Assembly (NCBI RefSeq): GCF_900104725.1
Contig: NZ_LT629758.1
Coordinates: forward strand, 3,658,001-3,722,000
DNA: 64,000 nt
Direction of reading: 5' to 3'
Origin: Actinoplanes derwentensis
GTDB taxonomy: Bacteria > Actinomycetota > Actinomycetes > Mycobacteriales > Micromonosporaceae
The position numbers were made by a program, and so were the translations under genes. Positions 42,685-64,000 of the stretch are shown here, piece by piece (the stretch's first letter is position 1; each line of letters starts with the position of its first letter). Under the pieces are notes generated by a model. It searched no databases, was not told where the DNA came from, and saw only the letters and a list, made by a program, of their open reading frames with translations.

Positions 42685-42702
42685 AAGATTGGATCCAATC
42701 TT
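42685..42702. promoter_or_regulatory. GntR-type operator 1, upstream of the Rieske oxygenase operon
   Basis: AAGATTGGATCCAATCTT is a perfect 18-bp palindrome ending 35 bases before the oxygenase start. The same core recurs at 46930-46941, 50049-50060 and 52086-52097, always before catabolic genes. FadR-type GntR regulators bind short palindromes of this kind, and one is encoded at 49258-49962. Confidence 0.75.
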
Positions 42703-42737
42703 GGTGAGATCGTATGCCAATGTTGATGGGAGGGCCT

Positions 42738-44057
42738 GTGCTCAAACGCGAGGAGAACGAACGCGTCACCCGCAGCGGGCCGGGCACGCCGCTCGGCAGC
42801 CTGATGCGCGCCTACTGGCAACCCGCCGCCCTGGTCTCCGAAATGAGCCCGGAGCGGCAGGTCAAGCCGGTGCGGCTGCTCGGTGAGGACCTGGTGCTGT
42901 TCCGCAAGCCGGACAAGACATGGGGCCTGGTCGGCCGGTTCTGCGCGCACCGTGGCGTCGACCTGGCCTTCGCCCGGCACGAGGAGGGCGGCCTGCGCTG
43001 CCTCTATCACGGCTGGCTCTACGGTGCCGACGGCCGCTGCAAGGAGCAGCCGGCCGAGCCCGCGCACAGCCGGTTCGCCGAGAAGGTGCGCATCCCCAGC
43101 TACCCCTGCGTGGAGCGCAACGGCATCGTCTTCGCCTACCTCGGTGAGGGCGACCCGCCCCCGCTGCCGGGTTACGACGCCCTGGAGGCCCCCGAGGAGT
43201 TCACCTTCGCCTTCAAGGGCCTCTGGGAGTGCAACTGGCTGCAGGGCCTGGAGGGCGGCATCGACCCGAGCCACGTGTCGTTCCTGCACCGGTTCATCGA
43301 TGAGGACCCCCGCGAGGTGTACGGGCAGCAGTTCAGCGAGATCGTCGAGGGCACCGGGCAGAAACTGTCGAAGCTGGTCGGCGACGCGTACCGTCCGGAC
43401 ATCGAGGTCGAGGAAGCCGAGCACGGCCTCCGGGTGTATGCGTTGCGCCAGCTCACCGAAGAGGTGAAGCACGTCCGCATCACGAACCTGGTGTTCCCCA
43501 ACGCGTTCGTCGTCCCGTTCGGCAACAGCAAGGTCTTCATCCAGTGGCACGTGCCCGTGGACGATTTCAATCACTACTGGTACATGATCTTCTACGACTT
43601 CGCCGAGCAGACCGACAAACAGACGCTGCTGCAACAGCGGCTCACCGAGGTGTCACTGCCGGACTACCGGCCGCTGCGCAACCGGGAGAACAACTGGGGG
43701 TACGACCCCGCCGAGCAGCGTGACCTCACCTACACCGGGATGGGCCTGGACATCAACGTCCACGACCAGTGGGCGGTGGAGAGCATGGGCCGCATCCAGG
43801 ACCGGACGGTCGAGCGCCTCGGCATCTCCGATCGCGCGGTGACCGCGAACCGCCGGATGCTGCTGCGCGCCATCGACGCGTTCGCCGACGGCGGCACCGT
43901 CCCGGCCCGGACCGGCGATCTGGACGGCCCCCTCGCCGTGGACACGATCGCGCCGACCGCCGACTGGGAGGCCACCTGGCGCCGTCGCGAGCAGGAGCGC
44001 CGCGACGCGTCCCCGTGGGCCGGGGAGAAGGAAAGGCAGAACGTTGCGCAGCGTTGA
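42738..44057 (+). CDS. Rieske non-haem iron oxygenase, large subunit (phthalate-dioxygenase type)
   Basis: This 439-residue oxygenase would hydroxylate or N/O-dealkylate an aromatic or amine substrate. Rieske cluster ligands are Cys69, His71, Cys88 and His91; mononuclear iron ligands are His179 and His184 in DPSHVSFLH. GTG 42738 is chosen because GGAGGG precedes it and the N-terminus then matches relatives (LKREENERVTRSGPGTP). No beta subunit, ferredoxin or reductase gene is in the window, so electron transfer must come from elsewhere. First gene of the operon behind operator 1; the next gene overlaps by 14 bases. Confidence 0.9.
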   Translation: MLKREENERVTRSGPGTPLGSLMRAYWQPAALVSEMSPERQVKPVRLLGEDLVLFRKPDKTWGLVGRFCAHRGVDLAFARHEEGGLRCLYHGWLYGADGRCKEQPAEPAHSRFAEKVRIPSYPCVERNGIVFAYLGEGDPPPLPGYDALEAPEEFTFAFKGLWECNWLQGLEGGIDPSHVSFLHRFIDEDPREVYGQQFSEIVEGTGQKLSKLVGDAYRPDIEVEEAEHGLRVYALRQLTEEVKHVRITNLVFPNAFVVPFGNSKVFIQWHVPVDDFNHYWYMIFYDFAEQTDKQTLLQQRLTEVSLPDYRPLRNRENNWGYDPAEQRDLTYTGMGLDINVHDQWAVESMGRIQDRTVERLGISDRAVTANRRMLLRAIDAFADGGTVPARTGDLDGPLAVDTIAPTADWEATWRRREQERRDASPWAGEKERQNVAQR

Positions 44058-45474
44058 CGAGCGCCCGATGGCCGAAGGTGGCGGCGGCTGGGACGCCCGG
44101 CCGATGCTGGCGGCCGAGCGCGGCGGGTTCATCGACCGGCACGGGCTGTGGGACAACCAGCAGTGGGCGGCGGCCGGCCAGATCCGCCGGGTGATCGACG
44201 AGCTGGGCCTGGAGCTGATCCGGTTCTCCTTCGCCGACCAGCACGGGATCCTGCACGGCAAGACGCTGACCAGGTCCTCGATCCCGGGGGCGCTGCGCGA
44301 CGGGGTGACCGCGCCGAGTTCGCTGCTGTTGAAGGACTCGTCGGGCCGCTCGGTGATGCCGGTGTTCACGCCGGACGCCGAGCCGGGTTTCGCCGGAGCC
44401 GGTGACGTGGTGCTGGTGCCGGACCCGACGACGTTCCGGGTGCTGCCGTGGGCGGAGAAGACCGGCTGGGTGCTGTGTGACCTGCGGTTCCCCACCGGCG
44501 CCCCGGTCCCCTACTGCACCCGGAGCATCCTGCGGGAGCAGCTCGGGCGCCTGGAGCGCAGCGGCTACGACATGACGGTCGGCGTGGAGCTGGAGTTCCA
44601 CGTCTTCAAGGACGGCAGACAGAACCGGGGCGGCCAGCTCCTGCTCGAAGAGGGGCTGGACGAGTACGACGAGGTGGTGCAGCTCCTGCAGCGCGGCCTG
44701 CGCAGCCTCGACCTGCCGTTGCGCTCGATCGAGCTGGAGTTCGGCGCCGGGCAACTGGAGATCACGCTTCAGGCCGCGCCGGCCGCCGAGGCCGCCGACC
44801 ACGTCACGCTGCTGCGTTCGGCGATCCGGCAGATGTGCCGGCGGCAGGGTCACCACGCCACGTTCATGTCCCGGCCCGCCGGAACGGCGAGCGCGTCCAC
44901 CGGCTGGCACCTGCACCAGTCGTTGCGGGAGCGGGCGACCGGCCGGGCCGCGTTCGAGCCGGGTGCCGACGAGACGCTGATGTCCAGCACCGCACGGCAC
45001 TGGCTCGGCGGCCTGCTGAAACACGCCCCGGCCGCCGCCGCGTTCGCCACGCCGACAGTCAACGGCTACAAGCGCTACCTGCCGTTCTCGCTGGCTCCGG
45101 ACCGGGTGCTGTGGGGCGCCGACAACAAGGGCGCGATGGTCCGAGCGGTGAGCGGCCGCCTGGAGAACCGGTCCGGCGAGCCGGCTGCCAACCCGTACCT
45201 CTACGTCGCCTCGCAAGTGATCAGCGGCCTGGACGGGCTGATCAAGGCCCTGGACCCGGGACCGCCCACCGAGAGCCCGTACGCCACCGACGCCGTCCTG
45301 CTCCCGCAGTCGCTCGGCGAGGCGATCACCGCTCTCGAAGCCGATCCGGTGTTCGCCGAGGCCCTGGGCCAGAAGACGATCGACTGGTACGGCCGGATCA
45401 AACGCGACGAGTTCGCCCGCTACCTGGCGCATGTCTCCGATTGGGAGCAACGCGAATACTTCGACCTCTTCTGA
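44044..45474 (+). CDS. Glutamine synthetase-like ATP-dependent ligase (gamma-glutamyl-amine synthetase candidate)
   Basis: This 476-residue protein has the GS fold. Metal and substrate residues are recognisable in GVELEFHVF, IELEFGAGQLEITL, GWHLHQSL and NGYKRYLPFSLAPDRVLWG; the usual ANR after the last motif reads ADNK, so substrate handling differs from true GlnA. Relatives join glutamate to amines (PuuA, IpuC, aniline gamma-glutamylation). The start is TTG 44044 inside the oxygenase gene, or ATG 44068. The company of an oxygenase, aldehyde dehydrogenase and flavin oxidase fits an amine-activating step. Lack of the adenylylation-type context argues against nitrogen assimilation. Confidence 0.85.
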   Translation: MRSVDERPMAEGGGGWDARPMLAAERGGFIDRHGLWDNQQWAAAGQIRRVIDELGLELIRFSFADQHGILHGKTLTRSSIPGALRDGVTAPSSLLLKDSSGRSVMPVFTPDAEPGFAGAGDVVLVPDPTTFRVLPWAEKTGWVLCDLRFPTGAPVPYCTRSILREQLGRLERSGYDMTVGVELEFHVFKDGRQNRGGQLLLEEGLDEYDEVVQLLQRGLRSLDLPLRSIELEFGAGQLEITLQAAPAAEAADHVTLLRSAIRQMCRRQGHHATFMSRPAGTASASTGWHLHQSLRERATGRAAFEPGADETLMSSTARHWLGGLLKHAPAAAAFATPTVNGYKRYLPFSLAPDRVLWGADNKGAMVRAVSGRLENRSGEPAANPYLYVASQVISGLDGLIKALDPGPPTESPYATDAVLLPQSLGEAITALEADPVFAEALGQKTIDWYGRIKRDEFARYLAHVSDWEQREYFDLF

Positions 45475-45489
45475 GAGGATATTTCAGAC

Positions 45490-46914
45490 ATGCGCAGCCT
45501 ACTGATCGACGGCGAATGGATCGAACCCGGCGAGCGGGAGACCATCGAGGTCCTCGACCCGTCCACCGGCCAGTCGATCGCCACCATCGCCCAAGCCACC
45601 GACGACGACGTGGACCTGGCCGTGCAAGCGGCGAACCGGGCCCACGCCGACCGCCGCTGGTCGGGTCTCGCCCCCATCGAGCGCACCCGGGTCCTGACCC
45701 GGATCGCCGACCTGATCGAGGAGAACCTCGAGGAACTCGCCGTCCTGGAGACCCGGGACAACGGCAAGCCGATCGAGCGGTCCCGCGCCGACACCGCGTT
45801 CTCGGCCAAGGACTTCCGGCACTTCGCCGGCGCTCCGGGCCGCCTGACCGGCACGGTCGTCCCGATCGACGGTGGCGCGCACCACGTCTACACGGTTCTG
45901 GAACCGGTCGGGGTGGCCGCGCTGATCCTGCCGTGGAACTTCCCGATCATGACGGCCGCCCACAAACTGGCACCGGCCCTGGCGGCCGGCTGCACGGTGG
46001 TGGTGAAACCGGCCGAACAGACCCCGTTGACCATGCTGCGGATGGCCGAGCTGTGCGAGCAGGCCGGGCTGCCGCCGGGCGTGCTGAACGTGCTGACCGG
46101 CGACGGCCGGACCGGTGCGGCCCTGGTGGCGCACCCGGGCGTGGCGAAGGTGTCGTTCACCGGCTCCACCGAGGTCGGCCGCAAGGTGATGGTCTCGGCG
46201 GCGGCGACCACCAAACGGCTGACCCTGGAACTCGGCGGCAAGAGCCCGAACATCATCTTCGCCGACGCCGATCTGGACGCGGCGACGGCAACGGCGATGC
46301 GGGCGAGTTTCGGTCACTCCGGGCAGATGTGTACGGCCGGCAGCCGCATCCTGGTGCAGCGGTCGATCCTGGACGAGATGGTCGAGCGGCTGACCGCGGC
46401 GACCCGCAAGGTGCCGGTCGGCAACGGGCTGGACGGCGGGATCTCGGTCGGGCCACTGGTCTCCGAGGAGCAGCGGGGCATCGTCCTGTCGTACATCGAG
46501 AAGGGTGTCGCCGAAGGCGCGACGGTCGCCACCGGTGGCGGCGTTCCGGAGCGGCCGGGCTACTTCGTCGAGCCGACGCTGTTCACCGGGGTCACGAACA
46601 CGATGACGATCGCCCGGGAGGAGATCTTCGGGCCGGTCGCCGGGGTGATCGCGTTCGAGGACGAGGCGGAGGCGATCGCGATCGCCAACGACACCTGTTT
46701 CGGCCTGGCCGCCGGGGTCTGGACCAAGGATCTGTCCCGCGCGCACCGGATGGCGTCCGCTCTGCACGCCGGCACGGTGTGGGTGAACACGTACAACATC
46801 TTCGACCCGGCGCTCTCGTTCGGCGGCGTCGGCGACTCCGGCCTCGGCCGCGATCTCGGCGACGAGGCCCTGCACTCGTTCTGCGAGCGCAAGGGCGTCG
46901 TGATCGCGCTATGA
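45490..46914 (+). CDS. NAD(P)-dependent aldehyde dehydrogenase
   Basis: This 474-residue aldehyde dehydrogenase has PWNFP, the cofactor loop FTGSTEVG, catalytic Glu in LELGGKSPN and catalytic Cys in GHSGQMCTAG, with EEIFGPV near the end. It would oxidise the aldehyde left after amine oxidation, as PuuC does in putrescine breakdown. It follows the ligase by 15 bases. Its stop overlaps an ATG of the fusion gene frame, but the more likely start of that gene lies 57 bases on. Confidence 0.92.
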   Translation: MRSLLIDGEWIEPGERETIEVLDPSTGQSIATIAQATDDDVDLAVQAANRAHADRRWSGLAPIERTRVLTRIADLIEENLEELAVLETRDNGKPIERSRADTAFSAKDFRHFAGAPGRLTGTVVPIDGGAHHVYTVLEPVGVAALILPWNFPIMTAAHKLAPALAAGCTVVVKPAEQTPLTMLRMAELCEQAGLPPGVLNVLTGDGRTGAALVAHPGVAKVSFTGSTEVGRKVMVSAAATTKRLTLELGGKSPNIIFADADLDAATATAMRASFGHSGQMCTAGSRILVQRSILDEMVERLTAATRKVPVGNGLDGGISVGPLVSEEQRGIVLSYIEKGVAEGATVATGGGVPERPGYFVEPTLFTGVTNTMTIAREEIFGPVAGVIAFEDEAEAIAIANDTCFGLAAGVWTKDLSRAHRMASALHAGTVWVNTYNIFDPALSFGGVGDSGLGRDLGDEALHSFCERKGVVIAL

Positions 46915-46929
46915 GCACCTCTTCGTACG

Positions 46930-46941
46930 ATGGGATCCAAT
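46930..46941. promoter_or_regulatory. GntR-type operator 2, before the aminotransferase-oxidase fusion gene
   Basis: ATGGGATCCAAT differs from the consensus ATTGGATCCAAT at one base. It lies 29 bases before the ATG at 46971 and 15 bases after the aldehyde dehydrogenase stop. Its position supports 46971 as the true start and implies separate control of the fusion gene. Confidence 0.55.
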
Positions 46942-46970
46942 TACGTGACTTTGACATCCAAGGCCGCGCG

Positions 46971-49235
46971 ATGAACACCGCAGCACTGCGGGCCGCCACC
47001 CCCGGCGCCCGGCACGCCCGGCACTTCAACGCCGCCGGATCGGCCCTGCCCAGCGAGGCCGTTCTCGCGACGGTCATCGAGCATCTGCGACTGGAGTCGC
47101 GGATCGGTGGTTACGAGGCCGCGGCGACGGCCAAGGACCAGTCCGAGCAGGTGTACTCCCTGGCCGCGCGGCTGCTCGGTGCCGACCCGGCGGACATCGC
47201 CCTCACCGAGAGCGCCACCGTCGCCTGGCACCGGGCTCTCGACGCGCTGCCACTGAAGCCAGGTGACCGGATCCTGGCCGCCGCCTCCAGCTATGTCAGT
47301 TCCGCCCTGCACCTGCTGGAGCTACGCCGGTCCAAGGGCATCGAGGTCGAGGTGCTGCCCTGCGCCGACGACGGCACGGTCGACCGGCAGGCTCTCGCCG
47401 ACGCGCTGCGCCGGCCGGCCGCCCTGGTCACGGTCGCGCACGTGCCGACCTCGTCCGGCCTGATCGAACCGGCTGCCGAGATCGCCGCCCAGTGCCGTGC
47501 CGCCGGGGTTCCGCTGCTGCTGGACGCCACGCAGTCCCTCGGTCAGATTCCCCTCGACGTGACCAGCGGTGACATCATCGTCGGCACCGGCCGCAAGTTC
47601 CTGCGCGGCCCGCGCGGCACCGGCCTGCTCTACGTCTCCCCCGCGATGCGCGAGATCATGCGGCCGTCGCACCCGGACGTGCGCGGCGCGGTCTGGCAGA
47701 GCGACGACGCCTACGAGCTGGCCGCCGGGGCCCGGCGCTTCGAGACCTGGGAGACGGCGCACGCACTGCGGCTCGGTCTCGGCACCGCGCTGCGCGAGGC
47801 CCTCGATCTGACGATCGAGGAGATCAACCGGCGCACCACGACCCTGGCGGACCGGTTGCGGTCCGCGTTGTCGGCAACCGCGGGGGTACGCCTGACCGAC
47901 CCGTCCGCGGGCGGCGGCGCGATCGTCACGTTCGTGCTCGACGGCGAGCAGCCGGTCGACACGGTCCGCCGGCTGCGGGCCGCCGGGGTGCACGTGGTGT
48001 CGGTCCCGGCCAGCCACGGTCGCTGGGACCTGGAACGCCGCGGCCTGGACGCGGTGGTCCGCGCGTCGGTGCACGTCTACAACGACGACTCCGACGTCGA
48101 CGCTCTGACCGAGGCGCTCAAGGTCCGCAAGAACGCTCCGGCGCTGATCTCCTCGGGCGCCCGGGCCGACACCATCGTGATCGGCGCGGGTGTGCACGGC
48201 GCGTCGGCGGCCTGGCACCTGGCCCAGCGCGGGGTGAGCGTGGTGCAGCTGGACCGCTTCCCGGACGGGCACACCGAGGGTTCGTCGCACGGGCACACCC
48301 GGATGATCCGGCGCGCCTACCCGAACCCGATCTGGGACGACCTCGTCGACCGGGCCTATCTGGCCTGGGCCGAGCTGTCCGAGGCGGCCGGGGTGCCGTT
48401 GCTGACCACGACCGGTGGCCTCTACGCACGGCCCGCCGCTGACGGCTCCCCCGGGCTGCGGGGCCCAGGTGTGCAGACCGTTCCGGTGTCCCGGTTCGCC
48501 GGGCTGCGGCTGGGCAGCGAGTTCACCGCCGTCTTCGACCCCGCCGCCGGAGTCCTCGACGCGGCGGCCACCATGCGGTCGCTGCGGGAGCTGGGCCTGG
48601 CGCACGGGGTGGACCGGCGGGCCGGCTGCACGGTGGAGAGCTGGAGTGCCGACGGGGACGGCGTCACCGTCCGGACCGCGGACGGTCTGCTGCGAGCCGA
48701 TCGCCTGGTCATCGCGGCCGGACCGTGGACCGGGACGCTCGTACCATCACTGAAGGATCTTCTGCAGGTCGTCCGGATCGTCAACATCTTCATCGGTTCG
48801 TCCGATCCGGCCAAGCTGGCGCCGCCGGCGCTCGGGCCGTTCTCGGTCGAGGTGCCCGGGGTGGGGCTGCTCTACGGGCTGCCCGCGTTCGACGGCAGCG
48901 CGGTGAAGATCGGCCTCGACCACGGCCCGGCCGACGACCTCGGCCCGCAGACACCGGTGACCGCGGCCGAGGCGGGTGAACTGCTCGCGCTGGCCCGCCG
49001 ATTCCTGCCCGCGGCCGACGGTGACGTGGTCGACTCGGTGTCGTGCCGGTACACCATGGCGCCGCGGAACCGGTTCGCGGTCGGAGCGCTGCCCGACACA
49101 CCGCAGGTGCTGGTCGCGGCGGCGTGCTCAGGTCACGGGTTCAAGTTCGGCCCGGCGATCGGGGCCGCACTGGCCGACCTGGCTCTCGGCAAGCATCGCC
49201 CGGACCTGGACTTCCTGGCACCGGGCGAACTCTGA
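46971..49235 (+). CDS. Class V aminotransferase / sarcosine-oxidase-type flavoprotein fusion
   Basis: This is a 754-residue bifunctional candidate. Residues 1 to about 385 form a class V aminotransferase (NifS/isopenicillin-epimerase type): RHFNAAGSALP, LTESATVAWHRAL, LLLDATQSLGQIPLDV, and the PLP lysine Lys209 in GTGRKFLRGPRGTG. Residues about 400-754 are a DAO-superfamily oxidase: TIVIGAGVHGASAAW, then SCRYTMAPRNRFAVG, where Cys692 matches the covalent-flavin Cys of monomeric sarcosine oxidase, and CSGHGFKFGP. Fusion could pass an amino or imino intermediate between sites. The start is ATG 46971 (homologue-like start); ATG 46911 would add 20 residues over operator 2. Confidence 0.85.
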   Translation: MNTAALRAATPGARHARHFNAAGSALPSEAVLATVIEHLRLESRIGGYEAAATAKDQSEQVYSLAARLLGADPADIALTESATVAWHRALDALPLKPGDRILAAASSYVSSALHLLELRRSKGIEVEVLPCADDGTVDRQALADALRRPAALVTVAHVPTSSGLIEPAAEIAAQCRAAGVPLLLDATQSLGQIPLDVTSGDIIVGTGRKFLRGPRGTGLLYVSPAMREIMRPSHPDVRGAVWQSDDAYELAAGARRFETWETAHALRLGLGTALREALDLTIEEINRRTTTLADRLRSALSATAGVRLTDPSAGGGAIVTFVLDGEQPVDTVRRLRAAGVHVVSVPASHGRWDLERRGLDAVVRASVHVYNDDSDVDALTEALKVRKNAPALISSGARADTIVIGAGVHGASAAWHLAQRGVSVVQLDRFPDGHTEGSSHGHTRMIRRAYPNPIWDDLVDRAYLAWAELSEAAGVPLLTTTGGLYARPAADGSPGLRGPGVQTVPVSRFAGLRLGSEFTAVFDPAAGVLDAAATMRSLRELGLAHGVDRRAGCTVESWSADGDGVTVRTADGLLRADRLVIAAGPWTGTLVPSLKDLLQVVRIVNIFIGSSDPAKLAPPALGPFSVEVPGVGLLYGLPAFDGSAVKIGLDHGPADDLGPQTPVTAAEAGELLALARRFLPAADGDVVDSVSCRYTMAPRNRFAVGALPDTPQVLVAAACSGHGFKFGPAIGAALADLALGKHRPDLDFLAPGEL

Positions 49236-49257: not shown

Positions 49258-49962
49258 TCAGGCGAAACCGTGGTCGGGCCCGTGGAAGACGGTGCCGGAC
49301 CGGCGCTCGTACCATCGGGCCAGCTGCTCGCCGGCCTCGATCACGTGTGCCTGCATCTCGCGGCGGGCGGTGTCGGCGTCCTCGGCGTCGAGCGCGGCCA
49401 GGATCCGCTCGTGCTCGGCGAAGTTGTCGGCGCGGTGCCGGGGGTGCTCGTGCAGCACCAGCGCGGAGACGTTACGCGGGAACGCCTCGTTGATCTCTTT
49501 GATCACCCGGGCCAGGCGCTCGTTGCCGGCGATGTGGTGGATCATCGTGTGGAACCGGTCGTTGGCGGCGTGCGACGCCGCGTCGGGTGGGGCGTCGCCG
49601 GGGCGCAGCAGCTCGTTGGTGAGCCGCAGCTCGGCCAGGCTGTCCCGGGTGATCCGGCGGACGGCGCGGGCGCAGGACAGGCCCTCCAGCTCGGCACGCA
49701 CCTCATACGCCTCCCGCACCTCCCAGGGCGCCGGGACGCGGACCACCGCGCCACGGTTGGGCACCACCACGATGAGGCCACCGGTCTGGAGCTGGCGCAA
49801 CGCCTCGCGGACCGGGGTGCGGCTCACGCCGAGAGTCTTGGCCAGCTCCGCCTGCCGTAGCTGGGCTCCGATCGGGATCTCACCGGACATGATCCGGGCG
49901 CGGATGGCGGCGGCGGTGTCGTCGACGAGCGCGCTCGACGCGTGGAAGGAAACAGGGTCCAT
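49258..49962 (-). CDS. GntR-family regulator, FadR subfamily
   Basis: This 234-residue regulator has an N-terminal winged helix (LRQAELAKTLGVSRTPVREALR) and a C-terminal FCD ligand-binding domain (NDRFHTMIHHIAGN, with His/Asp residues that usually bind metal and a carboxylate ligand). ATG 49962 has GAGG upstream; GTG 50004 is possible. It lies between the fusion gene (converging) and the amine oxidase (diverging), with operator 3 in the shared promoter. It is the natural candidate to read all four ATTGGATCCAAT sites and to sense a pathway intermediate. Confidence 0.9.
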   Translation of the reverse strand: MDPVSFHASSALVDDTAAAIRARIMSGEIPIGAQLRQAELAKTLGVSRTPVREALRQLQTGGLIVVVPNRGAVVRVPAPWEVREAYEVRAELEGLSCARAVRRITRDSLAELRLTNELLRPGDAPPDAASHAANDRFHTMIHHIAGNERLARVIKEINEAFPRNVSALVLHEHPRHRADNFAEHERILAALDAEDADTARREMQAHVIEAGEQLARWYERRSGTVFHGPDHGFA

Positions 49963-50048: not shown

Positions 50049-50060
50049 TATGGATCCAAT
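50049..50060. promoter_or_regulatory. GntR-type operator 3, between regulator and amine oxidase
   Basis: TATGGATCCAAT has an intact right half and two changes in the left half of the consensus. It lies 56 bases before the amine oxidase ATG and 86 bases before the regulator start, so it could serve both directions. Confidence 0.55.
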
Positions 50061-50116: not shown

Positions 50117-52036
50117 ATGAGCGTGTGCCACACCACAGCCTCACCGGTCCTGCGCTCGCACCCGCTGGACCCGCCGACCACCATCGAGATCAACCTGGCG
50201 GTCGACGCGGCTCGCACGGACGGCCGGCTCGGTGACCGGCCCCGATTCTGGGGCGCCACTCTCGGCGAGACGCATGCCCGCAAGGTCGTCGCCGGCTCCG
50301 CCACCGGTGTGCTGCTGACCCTGGTCGCCATCGCGACCGGCGGGTCGGCCGCCTGGGAGATCGACGCCGTGGTCACCGGCGACAAGGCGGAGGCCGTCGA
50401 CTGGCGTGCGATCGATCCGCGCCGGCCCGGCATCACCTCCGACGAGGCCCGCGCGGCCGCCCAGGCCTGCCGGGAGAGCGAGTTGTTCCGCGAGGTGATG
50501 GCCCGGCGCGGCATCCACGACGTCTCGCTCGTGATGATCGACGCCGAGTCGATGGGCGGTTTCGAGGGGAAATACGCCGGCCGCCGGGTCACCTGGGGCA
50601 CCGTCTGGCACCGGACCGAGGAGGCGGACAACGGTTACGCCCGCCCGGTGCAGGGTGTCGTCCCGATCATCGACATGACCACGATGGAGGTCCTGGAGGT
50701 CGAGGACCACGGGGTCATCCCGGTCTCCGAGGAGGCCGGCCTGCTGACCACCGGCGCGTTCGGCCCCGACCGCGAGGGTCTCAAGCCGCTCGACGTGGTG
50801 CAGCCGGAGGGCCCGAGCTTCTCGGTCGACGGCTGGAAGGTCGACTGGCAGGGCTGGACGTTCCGGATCGGCTTCACCCACCGCGAGGGCCTGGTCCTCT
50901 ACGACCTGGAGTTCCAGGGCCGGTCGGTGCTCAAGCGTGCGGCCTGCAACGAGATGTATGTGCCCTACCTCGACTCCAACTCCACCCAGTTCCGGAAGAA
51001 CTTCTTCGACTGGGGCGAGTACGGTGCCGGCCCGCTGACCAACTCGCTGTCGCTGGGCTGCGACTGTCTCGGCGAGATCTACTACTTCAACGGCATCCAC
51101 CTCGGCGGTTACGGCGAACCGGTCTCGATCGAGAACGCCGTCTGCATGCACGAGGAGGACGCCAGCATCCTCTGGAAGCACAACGACCTGCGCCGCGGGG
51201 TGTCCGAGGTGCGCCGCAGCCGCCGGCTGATCGTCTCGAACTTCCAGACGGTGGCGAACTACGACTACGGCTTCTACTGGTCGCTGCACCAGGACGGCCG
51301 GATCGAGCTGGAGGTCAAGCTCACCGGGATCCTGTCGGCGTCCGGTATCAACGAGGGCGAAGAGGCTCCGTACGGCCGGATCGTCGCCAAGAACGTCCAG
51401 ACCCCGATCCACCAGCACTATTTCGGCGTCCGCCTGGACACCGCGATCGACGGCGACCTGAACCGCCTGGTCGAGGAGCACGCCGAGGCCGAGCCGGACG
51501 ACACGCTCAACCCGTACGGCAACGCGGTCCGCTACGTCCGTGAGCCGCTGACCGTCGAGACGGCCCAGCGCAACGACCCGAGCATCGCCCGGCACTGGCG
51601 GATCGAGAGCGCCGACAAGACGAACCGGTACGGCGAGCCGACCGCGTACCGCCTGGCGATCCCGAACACCACCCGCAGCTTCGGCCGGCCCGAGTCGGTG
51701 ATGTCGCGCCGCGCCCCGTTCATCCACCAGCACCTGTGGGCCACCCCGTTCGACGAGTCCGAGCAGTTCATCGGCGGCCAGTACCCGAACCACGCCGAGC
51801 CCGGCGAGGACGGCGTACACGTGTGGCAGGAGCAGCAGCGTTCGATCGACGGCGTGCCGCTGGTGGTCTGGCCGGTCCTCGGTGTGCATCACCTGCCGCG
51901 CCCCGAGCAGTGGCCGGTCATGCCGGTCGAGGCGATTCACCTGGTCCTGGAGCCGGACGGCTTCTTCGACCGCAACCCAGCACTGGACATTCCGGACCCC
52001 GCGGCATCCCGCGGCGACAGTTCCTGCTGCTCGTAA
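50117..52036 (+). CDS. Copper-containing primary amine oxidase
   Basis: This 639-residue enzyme would oxidise a primary amine to aldehyde, ammonia and hydrogen peroxide. The topaquinone precursor is Tyr382 in ANYDYGFYW; copper ligands His432 and His434 lie in HQHYFGVRLD with a third His in FIHQHLW; the catalytic base is Asp298 in FDWGEYG. ATG 50117 has AAGGAG seven bases upstream. No signal peptide is seen, so it is cytoplasmic like other actinobacterial members (for example Arthrobacter histamine and phenylethylamine oxidases). Appears to be a single-gene unit behind operator 3. Confidence 0.93.
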   Translation: MSVCHTTASPVLRSHPLDPPTTIEINLAVDAARTDGRLGDRPRFWGATLGETHARKVVAGSATGVLLTLVAIATGGSAAWEIDAVVTGDKAEAVDWRAIDPRRPGITSDEARAAAQACRESELFREVMARRGIHDVSLVMIDAESMGGFEGKYAGRRVTWGTVWHRTEEADNGYARPVQGVVPIIDMTTMEVLEVEDHGVIPVSEEAGLLTTGAFGPDREGLKPLDVVQPEGPSFSVDGWKVDWQGWTFRIGFTHREGLVLYDLEFQGRSVLKRAACNEMYVPYLDSNSTQFRKNFFDWGEYGAGPLTNSLSLGCDCLGEIYYFNGIHLGGYGEPVSIENAVCMHEEDASILWKHNDLRRGVSEVRRSRRLIVSNFQTVANYDYGFYWSLHQDGRIELEVKLTGILSASGINEGEEAPYGRIVAKNVQTPIHQHYFGVRLDTAIDGDLNRLVEEHAEAEPDDTLNPYGNAVRYVREPLTVETAQRNDPSIARHWRIESADKTNRYGEPTAYRLAIPNTTRSFGRPESVMSRRAPFIHQHLWATPFDESEQFIGGQYPNHAEPGEDGVHVWQEQQRSIDGVPLVVWPVLGVHHLPRPEQWPVMPVEAIHLVLEPDGFFDRNPALDIPDPAASRGDSSCCS

Positions 52037-55702: not shown

Positions 55703-55703
55703 C

Positions 55704-56371: not shown

Positions 56372-56375
<4 letters not shown>
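55704..56375 (+). CDS. Alpha/beta hydrolase
   Basis: This 223-residue hydrolase has the oxyanion-hole motif VLVHGAGGTPTTW, nucleophile Ser in VGHSYGG, and a C-terminal His in GSHFTPRVRP. It belongs to the small esterase/amidase-like family that starts MHIVLVHGA, to which salicylate esterase-like and pyrethroid-type enzymes belong. Encoded in the middle of the transporter operon, it probably cleaves the imported compound or an intermediate. The stop overlaps the next gene (GTGA). Confidence 0.87.
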
Positions 56376-58358
<1,983 letters not shown>

Positions 58359-58362
<4 letters not shown>

Positions 58363-59117
58363 TCATCGACGCGTACAACACCACCCAGGACGTGCGAGGC
58401 CGCTCCGACTACCTCACCGGAGCCAAGCCGGGGCAGCCGGCGCCGCCGTACACCCCGTTCGACCCCAAGCGCATCCTGGACCGGATGGACGCCGCCGGTG
58501 TCGACATGGCGATGGTCTGCTCGCTCGCCCAGCGCATCGAGAACGACTTCATCGCCGGCCTGGTCAAGGCCCACCCGGACCGGTTCATCGGCTTCGGCCA
58601 GGTGATGCCGCAGGCCGACGACGCCCTCGACGAGATCGCCCGGATGAAGGACCTCGGCATCTCCGGCCTGAAACTGCACCCGTCGATGCACGGCTACCAC
58701 GTCGCCGACCACGGTCTGCTCGACCCGGTGTTCGAGAAGTGCGCCGAACTCGGCATGCCGATCCTGATCAACGCCCTGGACGACGCGTTCTGCGCGCCGC
58801 TCGCGATCGAGGAGATCGCCAAGGGCCATCCGACCGTGCCGACGATCATCGCGCACATGGGCGCCGTCTGGAACGTGCCCGAGGCGATCATCGTGGCCGA
58901 GCGGAACCCGCACATCTACCTGGAGACGTCGGCGACCCTGATCGCGGACGTCCGGCGGGCGTACGCACGGCTCGGCCCGAGCCAGATCCTGTTCGGCAGC
59001 GAGTGGCCGGGATCCGACTTCGACCTGGAGCGCATGAAGATCGCCAAGGCGATTCCGGACGACGCCGACCGGGCGCTGGTCGAGGGCGGCAACATGGCGC
59101 GGATCCTGGGCCTGTGA
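58359..59117 (+). CDS. Amidohydrolase family 2 (TIM-barrel metal hydrolase/decarboxylase)
   Basis: This 252-residue barrel protein (MIIDAYNTTQDV, VKAHPDRFIGFGQV, GISGLKLHPSMHGY, IIAHMGAVWNVPEAI, ILFGSEWPGSDF) is like uronate/aminocarboxymuconate-type amidohydrolases. The usual N-terminal HxH is replaced by DAYN, so the metal site is altered; His in LKLHPS, His in AHMG and Asp in PGSDF remain. It may be a lactonase, decarboxylase or hydrolase. ATG overlaps dppF, and its stop overlaps the deaminase GTG. Confidence 0.82.
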
Positions 59118-59572
59118 TCACCCCGGTAACCGCGCCCGCCCCGGTAACCGCGCCCGCCGGTTTCTCCCCGGAGGACGTCGAACTGCTGCGCCGGGCCGAG
59201 GACATCCTCGGCCGGGTGTGGGTGCACGGCCGGCACGAGGTCGCCACCGCCCTGCGCGCCGCCGACGGCTCGATCCACACCGGCGTCCACGTCGAAGGAT
59301 CCTGCCGGCGCAGCTCGATCTGCGCCGAAGGGGTCGCCCTCGGCACCGCCCGCGCCGCCGGCATCGCGCTCGGAGACGTGGTCAGCGTGGTGTCGGTGCA
59401 GATCAAACCGGCCGACACGTTCCGGATCATCGCACCGTGCGGCGTCTGCCGCGAACTGATCAGCGACTACAGCCCGGACGCCACCGTCTGGCTGACCGCA
59501 CCCGACACCGACGAGGTCATCGCCGTCCGGGCCCTGGACCTGCTGCCCGAGAAGTCACGGCGGCTCTGGTGA
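59114..59572 (+). CDS. Cytidine-deaminase-like zinc enzyme
   Basis: This 152-residue deaminase has zinc ligands Cys70, Cys109 and Cys112 with the proton-shuttle Glu72 (ICAEGVAL and PCGVCREL). The arrangement matches free-nucleoside deaminases of the Cdd/blasticidin-S deaminase group. The nucleoside-binding N-terminal residues are poorly kept (residues 59-64 HVEGSC), so the substrate may not be cytidine. The first 15 residues hold a duplicated PVTAPA. GTG 59114 overlaps the amidohydrolase stop. Confidence 0.82.
   Translation: MITPVTAPAPVTAPAGFSPEDVELLRRAEDILGRVWVHGRHEVATALRAADGSIHTGVHVEGSCRRSSICAEGVALGTARAAGIALGDVVSVVSVQIKPADTFRIIAPCGVCRELISDYSPDATVWLTAPDTDEVIAVRALDLLPEKSRRLW
59121..59156 (+). 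repeat. Perfect tandem duplication of 18 bases in the deaminase gene
   Basis: CCCCGGTAACCGCGCCCG occurs at 59121-59138 and again at 59139-59156, encoding PVTAPA twice. It adds six residues in frame to a tail outside the deaminase fold, so it looks like a recent slippage event. Confidence 0.9.
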
Positions 59573-59589
59573 CTGTTGAAGGAGACGAA

Positions 59590-60345
59590 ATGAGCAATCC
59601 GCAACGCTGGGAAGAGATGACCTGGCAGGAGGCCGGGGAGGCCACCGAACGCACCGACGCGGTGATCATCCCGGTCGGCGCGATCGAACAGCACGGCCCG
59701 CACCTGCCGCTCAACGTCGACACCGTGATCTGCCAGGCCGTCGCCGAAGAGGTCTCCCGGATCACCGGTGTGCCGACGATCCCGCCGCTGAGCTACGGCG
59801 TCTCCGGCTCGCACGGCGACTTCGCCGGCACCATCGCGCTGCGGCCGGAAACCCTGATCGCCATGGTCGAAGACGTGATCGACTCGCTGCATGCCAGCGG
59901 CATCCGCCAGTTCGTGCTGCTCAACGGGCACATCTGGAACAACGGGGCACTAGACGTGTCGGCCGAGAAGCTGCGGGTACGGCACAAGGACTCCCGCATC
60001 CGCGCGATCGGTTACGTCACCATGTACCCCGGTCCCGAAGTCGACGGCCACGTGCAGTACGGCCGCGGCCTGATGCACGCCAACTTCTTCGAGACCTCGG
60101 TCATGCTGCACCTGCGGCCCGACCTGGTCCGGATGGACCGGGCCACCTCGCACGTCGACGTCGACTCGTTCTGGGACTACCGGATGGACCAGGTCAGCGA
60201 GACCGGCGTGTGGGGCCGCGACGTCGCCACCGCCAACCCCGAACACGGCAAGTCCGAATTCGAACGCTGCGTCCGCACCACCGCGAACGCCGTCGCCACC
60301 GCCGTCCGCGAACCCTGGCCGTCCTCCGCCCACCGGCCTCTTTAA
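59590..60345 (+). CDS. Creatininase-family amidohydrolase
   Basis: This 251-residue creatininase-fold metal hydrolase has the metal-binding start PVGAIEQHGPHLPLNVDT, then GVSGSHGDFAGTIAL and LLNGHIWNNGALD. Relatives open cyclic amides (creatinine, mycofactocin peptide, formamidopyrimidine). Here it could open a lactam formed in the pathway. ATG 59590 has GGAGA upstream and lies 17 bases after the deaminase gene. Confidence 0.88.
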   Translation: MSNPQRWEEMTWQEAGEATERTDAVIIPVGAIEQHGPHLPLNVDTVICQAVAEEVSRITGVPTIPPLSYGVSGSHGDFAGTIALRPETLIAMVEDVIDSLHASGIRQFVLLNGHIWNNGALDVSAEKLRVRHKDSRIRAIGYVTMYPGPEVDGHVQYGRGLMHANFFETSVMLHLRPDLVRMDRATSHVDVDSFWDYRMDQVSETGVWGRDVATANPEHGKSEFERCVRTTANAVATAVREPWPSSAHRPL

Positions 60346-60360
60346 GGAAAGGACCTCCCC

Positions 60361-60996
60361 GTGGAGATCTTCGACATCACCCTCCCGATCCACCCGGAGA
60401 TGCTGCACTGGGGCCGCAAACCCGAGGTGGAGATCGTCGAGTCCCTCGCCAACGGTGACGCGTCCAACGTGACCCGCTGGCGGCTCGGCGCCCACACCGG
60501 CACCCACGTGGACGCCCCCGCCCACTTCGTCGACGGCGCCACCCCCGTCGACAAACTCGACCTGCACTCCCTGGTCGGCCCGGCCATCGTCGCCGACCTG
60601 ACCGCCGTCACCGGTGACATCACCGTCGACGACCTCACGGCCGCCGGGGTGGCCGGGCACAAGCGTGTCCTGCTCAAGACCTCGAACTCGGCGGGACCGT
60701 TGAAAGAGGTCGACCGGGCGCCGTCCTGGGTCGGGCTGTCACCCGAGGCCGCGCAGTGGCTGATCGCCGAAGGTGTCGAGCTGATCGGCATCGACTACCT
60801 GACGATCGAGAGCCACACCCGGACCGAGACCTGGGACGCCCACCACGTGCTGCTCGGCGCCGGCCTGATCATCCTGGAGAACGCCGACCTGGACGGGGTG
60901 CCGCCCGGCTTCTACGAACTGGTCTGCCTGCCGGCGAAACTGGTCGACTCGGACGGCTCGTTCGCCCGGGCCATCCTGATCAAGCGAGACGCCTGA
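60361..60996 (+). CDS. Cyclase-family metal hydrolase (kynurenine formamidase-like)
   Basis: This 211-residue member of the cyclase family has the metal motif HTGTHVDAPAHF (His45, His49, Asp51, His55), LLKTSNSAG and IGIDYLTIE. Related enzymes hydrolyse N-formylkynurenine, isatin or similar amides. GTG 60361, with AAGGA upstream, follows the creatininase gene by 15 bases. Its stop overlaps the next ATG (TGATG). Confidence 0.9.
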   Translation: MEIFDITLPIHPEMLHWGRKPEVEIVESLANGDASNVTRWRLGAHTGTHVDAPAHFVDGATPVDKLDLHSLVGPAIVADLTAVTGDITVDDLTAAGVAGHKRVLLKTSNSAGPLKEVDRAPSWVGLSPEAAQWLIAEGVELIGIDYLTIESHTRTETWDAHHVLLGAGLIILENADLDGVPPGFYELVCLPAKLVDSDGSFARAILIKRDA

Positions 60997-62462
60997 TGGC
61001 CGTCGCGGTCGCGGCGCCGCACCCGGCAGCGGTCGAGGCCGCACACGCCGTGATCGAGAGCGGCGGGAACGCACTCGACGCGGCGCTGGCGGCCGCGGCG
61101 GCGCTCACGGTGGCGTACCCCCATCAATGCTCTGTCGGGGGTGACCTGGTCGCCGTCGTCCGCCCGGCCGGCGGCGAACCGCAAGCCGTGCTCTCCATCG
61201 GCGCCGCCGCGGCAGCCGTCGACGTGGACGCGCTGCGTGCTGCCGGGCCGCGCATGCCGTTCGGCGGGGCGCAGACCGTCACCGTGCCCGGAGTGGTCGC
61301 CGGCTGGGCCGCGCTGCACGCCCTCGGCGCCAGCCTGCCGCTCGCCGACCTGCTCGCGCCGGCCCGGTCCCTGGCCACCGGCGGTGTGGCGGTCAGTCCC
61401 GGCCTGCACCGGGCGATCCTGGGCCGGATCGACGGTGTCCGCGCCGACCCCGGCCTGTCCGCGCTGCTGCTCGACGACGCCGGCGAACCGGTGACGACGC
61501 TGTACCAGCCGGCGCTGGCCGAAACCCTCGACAGCATCGGCCGCAACTGGCGGTCCTTCTACCGCGGTCACCTCGGTCATCGCCTGGTCGCCGGCCTCAA
61601 CCGGCTGGGCAGCCCGCTCACGGTCGGCGATTTCGCCGCCCACCAGGCCGAGATCACGTCACCGTTGGCGTCGGTTGCGGAGGGTGTTTCCTGGTACGCC
61701 GCCCCGCCGCCCGTCCAGGGAGCCACCTTCCTCGCCATCGCGGGTTCATCAGCGCTGCTGGCCGACGCGCGCCGGGCTCAACTGGCCCGCGACGCCCTGC
61801 TCGGCGACCCCCGCACCGGCCCGATCGACCTGGACGGCCTGCTGCTCCGGACCACCGCCGACTTCACACCCGCCGACCTCGTCAAACCGGCCGGCGACAC
61901 GGTGGCGGTCACCACGGTCGACTCGTCCGGCACCGCGGTCACCCTGATCCAGAGCGTCTTCCAGAGCTTCGGCTCCGGCCTGCTCGAACCCGACACCGGC
62001 GTCGTCCTGCACAACCGTGGCTCGTCGTTCAGCCTCGACCCGGCACACCCCGGAAGAATCGCCCCCGGTGTACGGCCACCGCACACCCTCTGCCCCACGG
62101 TCGCCGTCTCCGGTGACACGGTGGTGGCCCTGGGCTGTCAGGGTGGCCGCTCCCAGGCGTGGATCCTCGCCCAGGTGGCCGGCGACGTCCTGAGCACTGA
62201 CGATCTGTCCGGGGTGCTGGCCCGGCCGCGGTGGATCATCGGTGCCCGCGAGATCGACCGGGACGTCCCCACCCTGCTCCTGGAACCCGGCACCCCCGAT
62301 GCGGCGACGCTGACCAGCACCGCTTCGGCGCTGGACCTGGCCGTCGAGACCACGGCCGGCCCACACGACGACGCCGGCCACATCCAGGTGGCCCGGCTGG
62401 CAGCGGGCATCCTGTCCGCGGCCAGTGATCCCCGGGCCGACGGGCTGGCCGCCGTCTACTGA
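60996..62462 (+). CDS. Gamma-glutamyltransferase family protein
   Basis: This 488-residue Ntn-hydrolase precursor starts AAPHPAAVEAAHAVIESGGNALDAAL, as GGT does. The autocleavage/catalytic Thr is Thr302 in GDTVAVTTVD; VQSVFQSFGSG-like residues (IQSVFQSFGSGL) and GGRSQ-type C-terminal motif (LGCQGGRSQAW) follow. The usual TTH reads TVA, so autoprocessing may be altered. There is no signal peptide, so it is cytoplasmic. It could remove glutamate from gamma-glutamylated intermediates made by the GS-like ligase, or act as a cephalosporin-acylase-type amidase. Last gene before a hairpin. Confidence 0.85.
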   Translation: MAVAVAAPHPAAVEAAHAVIESGGNALDAALAAAAALTVAYPHQCSVGGDLVAVVRPAGGEPQAVLSIGAAAAAVDVDALRAAGPRMPFGGAQTVTVPGVVAGWAALHALGASLPLADLLAPARSLATGGVAVSPGLHRAILGRIDGVRADPGLSALLLDDAGEPVTTLYQPALAETLDSIGRNWRSFYRGHLGHRLVAGLNRLGSPLTVGDFAAHQAEITSPLASVAEGVSWYAAPPPVQGATFLAIAGSSALLADARRAQLARDALLGDPRTGPIDLDGLLLRTTADFTPADLVKPAGDTVAVTTVDSSGTAVTLIQSVFQSFGSGLLEPDTGVVLHNRGSSFSLDPAHPGRIAPGVRPPHTLCPTVAVSGDTVVALGCQGGRSQAWILAQVAGDVLSTDDLSGVLARPRWIIGAREIDRDVPTLLLEPGTPDAATLTSTASALDLAVETTAGPHDDAGHIQVARLAAGILSAASDPRADGLAAVY

Positions 62463-62498
62463 GCAACACCCCCTGACGTCCGGATCTGGTCCGGCGCA

Positions 62499-62523
62499 CT
62501 GGCCTCATGCCCCTCGAGGCCAG
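62499..62523 (+). terminator. Hairpin after the gamma-glutamyltransferase gene
   Basis: CTGGCCTC (62499-62506) pairs with GAGGCCAG (62516-62523), an 8-bp stem with a 9-base loop, 36 bases past the stop. It may separate the transporter operon from the final amidohydrolase. Confidence 0.55.
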
Positions 62524-62601
62524 CGGCCGGGCCGGATCCGGGCCTCGTTCTCCCGCTCCCGTCAGCACTTCCCCGATCGCGATCCCCCCGGAGGCCCGGC
62601 A

Positions 62602-64000
62602 ATGAGTGGTGAGCTGGTAATCATCGGCGACGTGATCACCCTGGACCCGGTCCGGCCCCGCGTCACCGCGGTCGCGATCGTGAACGGCCGGATAGCCGCC
62701 ACCGGCAGCCCCGCAGACGCGCGCGCGGCGGTTCCGGCCGGAACACCCGAGGTCACCGTGTCCGGCACGATCATCCCCGGTTTCGTCGACAGCCACGTGC
62801 ATCTGCTCTGGGCCGGACGACGGGCATCCCGGGTGTCCCTGACCGGCGCCACCTCGATCGCCGAAGTGCAGCAGCGTATCCGCGCGCACGCCCTCGCGAA
62901 CCCCGGCGACGGCTGGATCGAAGCCGACGACGACCTGGACCCGTGGGACCTGGCCGAGAACCGCCTGCCCACCGCCGCCGAACTGGAGACAGCCGCCCCC
63001 GGCCGCGGCGTCCTGCTGGACCGGCGCGGCCATGACGCCCTGGTCAACACGACCGCACTGCACCGGGCCGGTATCACCTCGGCCACTCCCGACCCGCCGG
63101 GCGGGCGCATCGACCGCGACCCGAACGGCGAACCGACCGGCCTGCTCGTCGAACATCCGGCGGTCGCACTGGCCCGGGCCGTCATCCCACCGCCGTCCGG
63201 CGCCGACCACCACCGCTGGATCGAAAACGGCCAGCGGGAACTCCTCGCCCACGGCATCACCACCGCGATGGACCCGGCGGTGTCCACGGCCGAACTGTCC
63301 GCCTACGCGGACGCGGCCCGCGCCGGCACCCTCCAGCTCCGGGTGACGGCGATGCCGCTCGGTTCGGAGACCACCACGTTCGCGGACCTGGACCGGGCCG
63401 CCGAGACGTGCGGCCTGGAAACCGCAGACCCCCATCTGCTGGTACGAGGCCCCACCAAACTCTTCCTGGACGGCGGCGGCTCCCTCGGCACAGCTCTGCT
63501 CTCCACACCGTGGCCCACTCACCCCACCCCACCGGCGTCTCCCGAGCCGACCCCGGCCGCAGGCCCGTCACCAGCCGAACCGGCGCCGCTGCCCACATCG
63601 ACGCTTACCCCTTCCTCCGCTACCCCTTCCTCCGGTGTCGTGGAGCCCTTGGGTGTCGGCCCTTCCCAACCCTCAGCCGCAGAACCTGGCCCGGTGGACC
63701 CTGCCTACAGCGAGCCGGTTTCCTGCGGGGTCGTCGAGCATTCCGACTACCACGGGAATCAGACGCTGAGCAGGGAAGTCGTGCTCGCGCATTGCCGGGA
63801 AGCGGCGCTGGCCGGGCGTGGAGCAGGGGTGCACGCGGTCGGGGACGCCGCGATCGACCTGGTGCTGGACGTGCTCGGTGAAGTCGACGCGGTGACACCT
63901 GTCGCGGGACTGGGATTCCACCTGATCCACGCCTATCTGGGGCCGAGTCCGGACGCGATGCGCCGTGCCCGGGATCTGGGCGTGCGGGTGTCGGCGCATC
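62602..64000 (+). CDS. Amidohydrolase family 3 (YtcJ-like), C-terminus cut by window edge
   Basis: The frame is open from ATG 62602 (GGAGG upstream) to the last base, 466 residues seen of an expected ~540-600. Metal ligands are His65 and His67 in GFVDSHVH; the lysine region is TKLFLDGGGSLGTALLS; AGVHAVGDAAIDLV and HLIHAYLGPS follow. Between LGTALLS and EHSDYHGN lies a Pro/Ser/Thr-rich insert of about 70 residues (about 306-378) not found in typical members. YtcJ proteins hydrolyse amides such as formamides. It probably belongs to the same catabolic locus. Confidence 0.87.
   Translation, partial: MSGELVIIGDVITLDPVRPRVTAVAIVNGRIAATGSPADARAAVPAGTPEVTVSGTIIPGFVDSHVHLLWAGRRASRVSLTGATSIAEVQQRIRAHALANPGDGWIEADDDLDPWDLAENRLPTAAELETAAPGRGVLLDRRGHDALVNTTALHRAGITSATPDPPGGRIDRDPNGEPTGLLVEHPAVALARAVIPPPSGADHHRWIENGQRELLAHGITTAMDPAVSTAELSAYADAARAGTLQLRVTAMPLGSETTTFADLDRAAETCGLETADPHLLVRGPTKLFLDGGGSLGTALLSTPWPTHPTPPASPEPTPAAGPSPAEPAPLPTSTLTPSSATPSSGVVEPLGVGPSQPSAAEPGPVDPAYSEPVSCGVVEHSDYHGNQTLSREVVLAHCREAALAGRGAGVHAVGDAAIDLVLDVLGEVDAVTPVAGLGFHLIHAYLGPSPDAMRRARDLGVRVSAH
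63606..63635 (+). repeat. 15-base tandem repeat within the amidohydrolase insert
   Basis: TACCCCTTCCTCCGC at 63606-63620 is followed by a copy differing only at the last base (63621-63635). It keeps the frame and lies in the low-complexity Pro/Ser/Thr insert, so slippage probably helped to build the insert. Confidence 0.85.

Follow-up and report, generated by a model that had tools for sequence, protein, structure and literature searches.

The closest described relatives of the locus reported here combine an oxygenase gene with a glutamine synthetase (GS)-like gene. In the accessible text of PMC5632844, the sad operon of Hydrogenophaga intermedia PBC comprises sadA, sadB, sadC (ferredoxin) and sadD; sadA is the 4-aminobenzenesulfonate 3,4-dioxygenase and sadB a glutamine synthetase, and a natural substrate similar in shape to 4-aminobenzenesulfonate is proposed. 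The window analyzed here is a 64,000-nucleotide stretch of the Actinoplanes derwentensis genome (NZ_LT629758.1, positions 3,658,001 to 3,722,000). From position 42,689 to its end, it carries a catabolic island that begins with such a pair. Compared by description, the likeness to the sad operon lies in the oxygenase gene accompanied by a GS-like gene. In contrast to the sad operon, the island's probable reductase is a Fer2/FNR protein set apart in the home genome, and the pair is embedded in a putative regulon with amine oxidases, a fusion of a pyridoxal phosphate (PLP) enzyme with a DAO flavin oxidase, an importer and hydrolases.

Other known systems share parts of this island. TdnQ, AtdA1 and NpaA1 have a GS-like ligase about 43% identical to that of the island, with the catalytic Glu pair kept; the accessible part of the NpaA1 paper describes gamma-glutamylation of arylamines (PMC11335346). 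The aniline and 1-naphthylamine clusters differ in their type-1 glutamine amidotransferase, their alpha-beta Rieske oxygenase and a pocket Phe where the island GS has Lys; an operon combining such an amidotransferase with an alpha-beta Rieske oxygenase was not found here.

On balance, we consider it somewhat probable that actinobacteria share a conserved catabolic regulon of about 20 genes, with the island as its main locus and a sad-type arm for an anionic arylamine, most likely 4-aminobenzoate. Gene content, co-occurrence, a shared palindrome, sad-type kinship and pocket residues were established computationally. The aromatic arm is of a known kind in a new setting. A first, sequence-only reading of this DNA could name no fitting pathway, and we likewise recognized none in the open-licence PMC literature, where neither the operator, nor the gene combination, nor a 4-aminobenzoate dioxygenase appeared in a form recognizable as this system.

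The island is a conserved unit

Pfam and NCBIfam scans of the window proteins matched all enzyme classes listed in the sequence-only reading, including the full dipeptide-type ATP-binding cassette (ABC) importer. We surveyed 150 host-family genomes, matching the fusion at E 1e-60 and counting GS at an identity of at least 65%. Adjacent PLP and flavin halves and the GS coincided in the same 17 genomes (in one of them, G057, the flavin half was detected in a separate locus search), and the other 133 had neither at the thresholds used. Altogether 37 genomes matched the fusion somehow, those outside the 17 mostly by the PLP half alone, and three of the 133 non-island genomes carried a GS paralogue of 37-41% identity. 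Since the home genome alone among 15 of its genus carries the PLP-flavin/GS set, the island is patchy.

A GTDB scan with the fusion alignment yielded at least 79 loci, 32 of which match nearly the whole fusion and the rest one half. When 28 queries from 27 home proteins were compared with the collected loci by tblastn, the gene set recurred, with its order altered, in Actinoplanes, Winogradskya, Acrocarpospora, Streptomyces, Nonomuraea, Rhodococcus, Lacisediminihabitans, Microbacterium, Micromonospora, Salinibacterium, Curtobacterium, Agreia and others. By our own gene calls, PLP and DAO are separate adjacent genes in the Microbacteriaceae and Micromonospora loci and fused in the Actinoplanes-led group. 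The earlier proposal of one island with a GntR gene is thus borne out, and the fortuitous adjacency of independent modules, named there as its refutation, is ruled out by the co-occurrence in 17 of 150 genomes and by the same set in rearranged loci.

At E 1e-60, GS was not found in 8 of 20 island genomes searched (genome completeness not given), and in these eight the PLP-DAO pair, amine oxidase and gamma-glutamyltransferase (GGT) remain together. The GS arm looks optional within the island. One regulator might govern several scavenging modules that work separately (for amine oxidation, for heterocycle/amide hydrolysis and for arylamine oxidation) and share no single parent compound, an alternative we regard as doubtful yet worth serious attention. 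It agrees with the missing GS matches, with hydrolases and importers that vary between loci (some importers being Pot-type by sequence reading) and with sad-type pairs that lack the core in most plasmid loci viewed. However, PLP-DAO keeps company with the amine oxidase, many families preserve the set as a whole, and the Nitratireductor and Palleronia plasmid pairs lie near creatininase, deaminase, Rid, FAD oxidase or class-V PLP genes.

A shared palindrome and a candidate GntR regulator

The mark of the island is the palindrome (A)TTGGATCCAA(T), with the octamer core TGGATCCA. In the 10.65-Mb home genome, TTGGATCCAA occurs five times (reversed control, twice): 5' of the Rieske gene, 5' of the solute-binding protein (SBP) gene, 4.4 kb past the window end before the cupin and Fer2/FNR reductase genes, and at two further sites. 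The unlinked site at 2925184 lies at Amidohydro_3 and RidA-like genes and a divergent amidase gene. The site at 2415059 has no island-family gene within 5 kb; in the 19 kb around it, the only island-family matches were two ABC ATPases (34-38%) more than 5 kb off. Within the window, matches with at most two mismatches were not above chance.

Across 13 loci, each from a different genus, TGGATCCA was the most abundant of the 256 palindromic 8-mers between genes, with 41 copies against 14 for the runner-up; coding DNA had 2 copies, and 12 of the 13 loci had the octamer between genes. Larger counts gave 46 intergenic copies (next 16, coding 3, 14/15 loci) and 65 (next 23, coding 9, 23/25 loci). Furthermore, the octamer lies at most 350 bp upstream of 17 of 23 gntR genes, and the decamer is present in 15/17 island genomes versus 1/18 non-island relatives. 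The 49258-49962 product was assigned to the GntR family from a sequence reading and from 35-40% matches to genes annotated GntR on plasmids. From the comparative evidence, we infer that it may bind the palindrome.

A genome scan with the octamer was dropped as a regulon finder, because its 115 sites in the home genome (control, 12) are too unspecific. At far exact decamer sites in relatives, 12 stretches (L116-L127) gave no island-family match at E 1e-12. Pfam placed eight of nine neighbor proteins of far sites (one more came from L128) in unrelated families and one in none; on both results, the sites were treated as chance.

Two observations concern palindromes elsewhere. In a home-genus genome without the island, two of them (L128; G130:C19:179675 and 179727) lie 5' of a gntR gene whose product is 30% identical to the home protein. 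In Microbacterium (L087 5344-6144, with equivalents in L038, L042 and L051), the palindrome separates the PLP gene from a divergently oriented gene for an EgtC-like class II amidotransferase; the family scan was made on the L087 protein alone.

The Rieske/GS pair is probably of the sad type by sequence

The Rieske alpha subunit gene adjoins the GS-like gene (window 42738-45474), and the best solved relative of the GS is NpaA1 (8wwu). On plasmids, the first 13 of the best 15 of 33 Rieske records have a GS match as well, no more than 6.4 kb away in every case and no more than 140 bp away in 10; the remaining two had no GS among the best 25 of 100 GS records. One plasmid relative belongs to Novosphingobium resinovorum SA1, a 4-aminobenzenesulfonate degrader according to the accessible text of PMC5632844.

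In a midpoint-rooted tree of 28 GS proteins, where "sad" rows are plasmid relatives so labeled by us and not proven sad enzymes, island and sad-type rows split from NpaA1, a TdnQ-like protein and the Streptomyces tendae GS (95/96). Fifteen of the 16 island rows form one starred group, and the Streptomyces milbemycinicus type falls with the sad rows at an open fork, a placement by which the island rows need two changes. This type (L029, L030, L034) represents a distinct Rieske/GS lineage, about 49-50% identical to the home proteins, and is perhaps a second acquisition.

The position of NpaA1 F75, in the loop lining the amine pocket, is Lys in all 16 island and all 9 sad-type rows, and Phe in NpaA1, the TdnQ-like protein and the S. 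tendae GS. The closest solved Rieske protein is the isophthalate dioxygenase IPDO KF1 (9ina), whose R234 holds the carboxylate according to the accessible part of PMC12445078. The equivalent Arg (own numbering offset) is kept in 24/24 Rieske rows; because the solved relatives 7fjl and 7fhr have it too, it marks a wide clade. In contrast to IPDO KF1, the island alignment has Gln at the H257 position, and the island has a partner GS gene. Together, the GS Lys and the Rieske Arg predict an anionic arylamine substrate.

Judged by sequence, the closest known relative of the pair is the sad (4-aminobenzenesulfonate dioxygenase) type, not PuuA, IpuC or TdnQ. The Rieske/GS arm fits the gamma-glutamylation-like enzyme set of the sequence-only reading, but the Puu, Ipu and Tdn routes cited there are not its nearest analogues. 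The GS goes with sad-type ligases, one of them from a sulfanilate degrader, and the Rieske protein belongs with the single-subunit oxygenases of the phthalate/isophthalate kind rather than with the alpha-beta oxygenases of the aniline kind. A sadC/sadD-kind ferredoxin and reductase were not found; the home locus has the Fer2/FNR protein. A reductase gene of this family adjoins Rieske-GS in eight other loci, which supports the home protein as the Rieske electron donor.

All four enzyme classes of PuuABCD (GS, DAO, aldehyde dehydrogenase, gamma-glutamyl hydrolase) are present in the island, and the best NCBIfam model of the GS is gamma-glutamylputrescine synthetase (NF045547). In a Puu-like route, the GS would ligate an aliphatic amine or polyamine, DAO would oxidize it, and aldehyde dehydrogenase and GGT would finish. 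We consider this very unlikely: the GS scored 244.9 bits against a cut-off of 650 and groups with the sad-type ligases, it adjoins a Rieske gene in nearly every GS-bearing locus, and DAO, which is sarcosine/N-methyltryptophan oxidase-like, also occurs without a GS match. The Rieske arm is a further difference from PuuABCD, and Pfam revealed no PuuD-type hydrolase among the island proteins scanned.

Product of the aromatic arm

Plasmid loci with the pair offered hints at the product. Thirteen were viewed, nine annotated and four without annotation, and 4/9 annotated loci have protocatechuate or 4-nitrobenzoate-type genes close to the pair. In Palleronia, it stands beside pcaH, pcaG, the 3-carboxymuconate cycloisomerase gene, pcaC, pcaD and a 3-oxoadipate acetyltransferase gene, the product of which passes its NCBIfam model. 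In Methylobacterium nodulans, Cupriavidus and Caballeronia insecticola, genes for a nitroreductase and for DUF4863, which we take to be pfam16155, are near the pair; two of the proteins scanned from these loci had no NCBIfam match. The accessible part of PMC6449761 describes a pfam16155 protein as a homologue of 4-hydroxylaminobenzoate lyase.

In island genomes, PcaH was detected in 26/27 with GS versus 2/8 without (Fisher p 1e-4) and, within Microbacteriaceae, in 7/7 versus 2/8 (p 0.007), the genomes compared being related. The actinobacterial catechol 1,2-dioxygenase exceeded its cut-off in only 1/35 island genomes. Because of this rarity and the PcaH pattern, protocatechuate, and hence 4-aminobenzoate, is likelier than catechol formed from aniline or anthranilate. 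The arm probably gamma-glutamylates and dioxygenates an anionic arylamine, with 4-aminobenzoate being converted to protocatechuate, as far as sequence comparison can tell.

Other data weigh against this assignment. PcaH is common in the host family and was also found in 11/14 non-island relatives, and a Patulibacter genome has GS and no PcaH match. In a Rhodococcus genome with the island, the contig that carries it also encodes catechol 1,2-dioxygenase; weaker matches occur in 7 more of the 35 genomes, and other catechol-cleaving families were outside the search. Moreover, in the stretch viewed, 5/9 annotated plasmid loci have no pca or DUF4863/nitroreductase genes: those of Polaromonas, SA1 (with maleylacetate reductase), Pseudooceanicola, Nitratireductor and Methylobacterium aquaticum.

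A sulfonated arylamine as the substrate, with TauE exporting sulfite, is very unlikely in our view. The closest functionally studied system is indeed a 4-aminobenzenesulfonate dioxygenase, a TauE gene is present in the home, Micromonospora-type and G006 loci, and the Amidohydro_2 protein weakly matches 4-sulfomuconolactone hydrolase. However, this last match reached 31.6 bits against a cut-off of 500, the Palleronia pair accompanies carboxylate (pca) genes, and natural sulfonated anilines are rare.

Core enzymes

The copper amine oxidase scored 704.3 bits with NF008559 (cut-off, 651) and has TVANYD at 378; the topaquinone (TPQ) motif of copper amine oxidases is NY(D/E). On the frame with the fusion, the DAO half reached 253.0 bits with NF008425 (N-methyl-L-tryptophan oxidase; cut-off, 257). 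The PLP half fell below the EgtE model TIGR04343 (165.9 bits; cut-off, 400), as did the GGT below TIGR00066 (181.8 bits; cut-off, 357.85), although it passes PF01019.

The sole NCBIfam match of the cyclase was arylformamidase (128 bits, below the cut-off of 223), and its solved relatives include kynurenine formamidases. These matches would suit tryptophan/kynurenine-type catabolism, in which the arylformamidase-like cyclase, the class-V PLP enzyme and the Rieske/GS pair would lead through anthranilate to catechol. This route is highly improbable, since the PLP half most resembles EgtE and cysteine desulfurases, the best 25 of 37 models for it do not include kynureninase, and catechol 1,2-dioxygenase is as rare as stated above.

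Amidohydro_2 was found in 19/24 genomes at 74-90% identity, with most columns invariant across nine aligned rows; it is without the N-terminal HxH that the family normally bears. The gamma-glutamyl hydrolase class of the sequence-only reading is not necessarily represented by GGT in the Rieske/GS arm, because GGT stays by PLP-DAO in the eight genomes without a GS match.

Neighborhoods in relatives and on plasmids

Relatives of the island carry extra hydrolases: PTE-like, isochorismatase (weakly biuret hydrolase/RutB-like), hydantoinase A/B, M24, dimethylformamidase-like, EgtC-like, allophanate hydrolase and DUF1989 proteins. Allophanate hydrolase exceeded its cut-off in L130, and the others are family-level calls. 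Creatinine degradation resembles the island in its creatininase family and DAO, and the relatives add hydantoinase A/B, M24, isochorismatase and allophanate hydrolase families. In contrast, the island creatininase reached only 141.9 bits with TIGR04448 (cut-off, 235), and what is shared is families, with orthology indicated solely for the L130 allophanate hydrolase.

The Nitratireductor pair has creatininase-family, cytosine deaminase, Rid and FAD oxidase genes as neighbors; the Palleronia pair has an Opp-type importer, RidA and a class-V PLP enzyme. Apart from the pair itself, matches to home proteins in these two loci are limited to creatininase (35%), RidA (35%) and transporter parts, and the Palleronia PLP enzyme had no home match at the threshold. 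On other plasmids, a GntR gene (35-40%) is near the pair in six loci, Amidohydro_3 relatives in one and aldehyde dehydrogenase in one. The hydrolases of the relatives and the plasmid neighbors suggest cyclic amide or ureide chemistry.

Further genes were noted near islands or pairs. A large N,N-dimethylformamidase-like subunit with a small adjacent gene lies by the island in L026 (2250-4469; PF20254, scanned in this locus), L048 and L135. A carboxylase (urea/guanidine type by our own reading), DUF1989 and allophanate hydrolase occur near the island in several families (L023, L046, L047, L130, L161). Microbacterium L160 (5649-12970) has an SfnG/RutA-like flavin monooxygenase and a hydantoinase A/B (caprolactamase-like) pair near a palindrome, and the Polaromonas JS666 plasmid (L184 4508-7539) has a gene annotated CBASS cyclase near the sad-type pair.

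Proposed pathway

In the explanation that we favor, a GntR repressor would occupy the (A)TTGGATCCAA(T) sites and be released by substrate or an intermediate. The ABC importer would take up a nitrogen-rich compound; as previously suggested, an N-containing aromatic or cyclic amide is possible. Its bonds, of the cyclic amide, ureide, formamide or ester kind, would be opened by the hydrolases and the deaminase. The amines set free would be substrates of the PLP enzyme/flavin oxidase and the copper amine oxidase, which would oxidize them, and aldehyde dehydrogenase would yield acids. In the aromatic arm, the GS-like ligase would gamma-glutamylate an anionic arylamine, most likely 4-aminobenzoate, and the Rieske oxygenase with the Fer2/FNR reductase would dioxygenate the product. 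After loss of the glutamyl group through GGT, an EgtC-like amidotransferase or another hydrolase, protocatechuate would enter the pca pathway.

Several points count against this explanation besides those concerning protocatechuate. Its support is computational throughout. The GS is unmatched in the eight island genomes mentioned, the type-2 island genomes G057 and G103 are without the exact decamer, and the octamer alone is frequent in the home genome. As anchors common to a whole clade, the Lys and Arg give no specific pointer to 4-aminobenzoate; the electron partner is unlike sadC/sadD, and GGT does not track GS.

A more specific version, in which the regulon would serve as a pathway, widespread in soil, for folate- or pterin-like compounds, appears improbable. 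Here DAO and aldehyde dehydrogenase would act at the C9-N10 bridge, the CDA-like deaminase, creatininase, cyclase and amidohydrolases would open the pterin/ureide ring, GGT would trim gamma-glutamyl tails, and freed 4-aminobenzoate would pass through the sad-type arm to protocatechuate. However, no known type of 4-aminobenzoyl-glutamate hydrolase was found in the island (the genome beyond it was not searched), and this version does not explain what the copper amine oxidase and the PLP enzyme do. If true, it would also settle the question of a natural substrate for sad-type pairs.

With a regulon as proposed, about 20 scattered "hydrolase" and "oxidase" annotations of soil actinobacteria would become one testable unit with a defined DNA site. 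For sad-type glutamylating dioxygenases, whose natural substrate is left open in the accessible text of PMC5632844, 4-aminobenzoate would be a concrete candidate. The parent compound, if found, would reveal a common undescribed nitrogen-cycling route in soil and on plants.

Layout of the home locus

The features of the locus are listed in Table 1. Gene starts were set by a codon-usage script, not by a standard gene finder.

Table 1. Features of the island in the window (window positions)
Feature	Position	Strand	Remark
Palindrome TTGGATCCAA	42689..42698	no strand	5' of Rieske gene; position kept in relatives
Rieske oxygenase alpha subunit, SadA-like	42738..44057	+	alternative ATG 42714
GS-like gamma-glutamyl arylamine ligase (predicted), SadB-like	44068..45474	+	
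Aldehyde dehydrogenase	45490..46914	+	Pfam/NCBIfam
One-mismatch palindrome	46931..46940	no strand	gap between aldehyde dehydrogenase and fusion genes
Fusion of class-V PLP enzyme (EgtE-like) and DAO flavin oxidase (sarcosine/N-methyltryptophan oxidase-like)	46971..49235	+	
GntR-family regulator, candidate palindrome binder	49258..49962	-	own gene call
One-mismatch palindrome	50050..50059	no strand	gap between gntR and amine oxidase genes
Copper amine oxidase, TPQ motif	50117..52036	+	
Palindrome TTGGATCCAA	52087..52096	no strand	5' of importer operon
ABC importer family-5 solute-binding protein (SBP5)	52154..53782	+	
ABC importer permease	53865..54638	+	start possibly 53775
ABC importer second permease	54635..55702	+	
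Alpha/beta hydrolase	55704..56375	+	Pfam
ABC importer ATPase, D type	56372..57388	+	
ABC importer ATPase, F type	57385..58362	+	
Amidohydro_2 protein, extremely conserved	58359..59117	+	
Cytidine/blasticidin-S deaminase-like (CDA-like) deaminase	59114..59572	+	
Creatininase-family amidohydrolase	59590..60345	+	
Cyclase/arylformamidase-family hydrolase	60361..60996	+	
GGT-family protein	60996..62462	+	
Amidohydro_3 protein	62602..64000	+	continues beyond window, stop ~64728

Past the window end, a TauE-type gene comes after the Amidohydro_3 gene, and the Fer2/FNR protein, the probable Rieske reductase, is encoded about 3 kb beyond the end, beside a cupin gene and with the same palindrome. Two ARAGORN calls, tRNA-Asp (50341-50431) and tRNA-Thr (52276-52369), overlap the amine oxidase and SBP genes and are probably both false positives. 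The Amidohydro_3 gene (window 62602-64000, L006 1-1728) encodes a Pro/Thr/Ser-rich insert within the enzyme domain and a long low-complexity tail.

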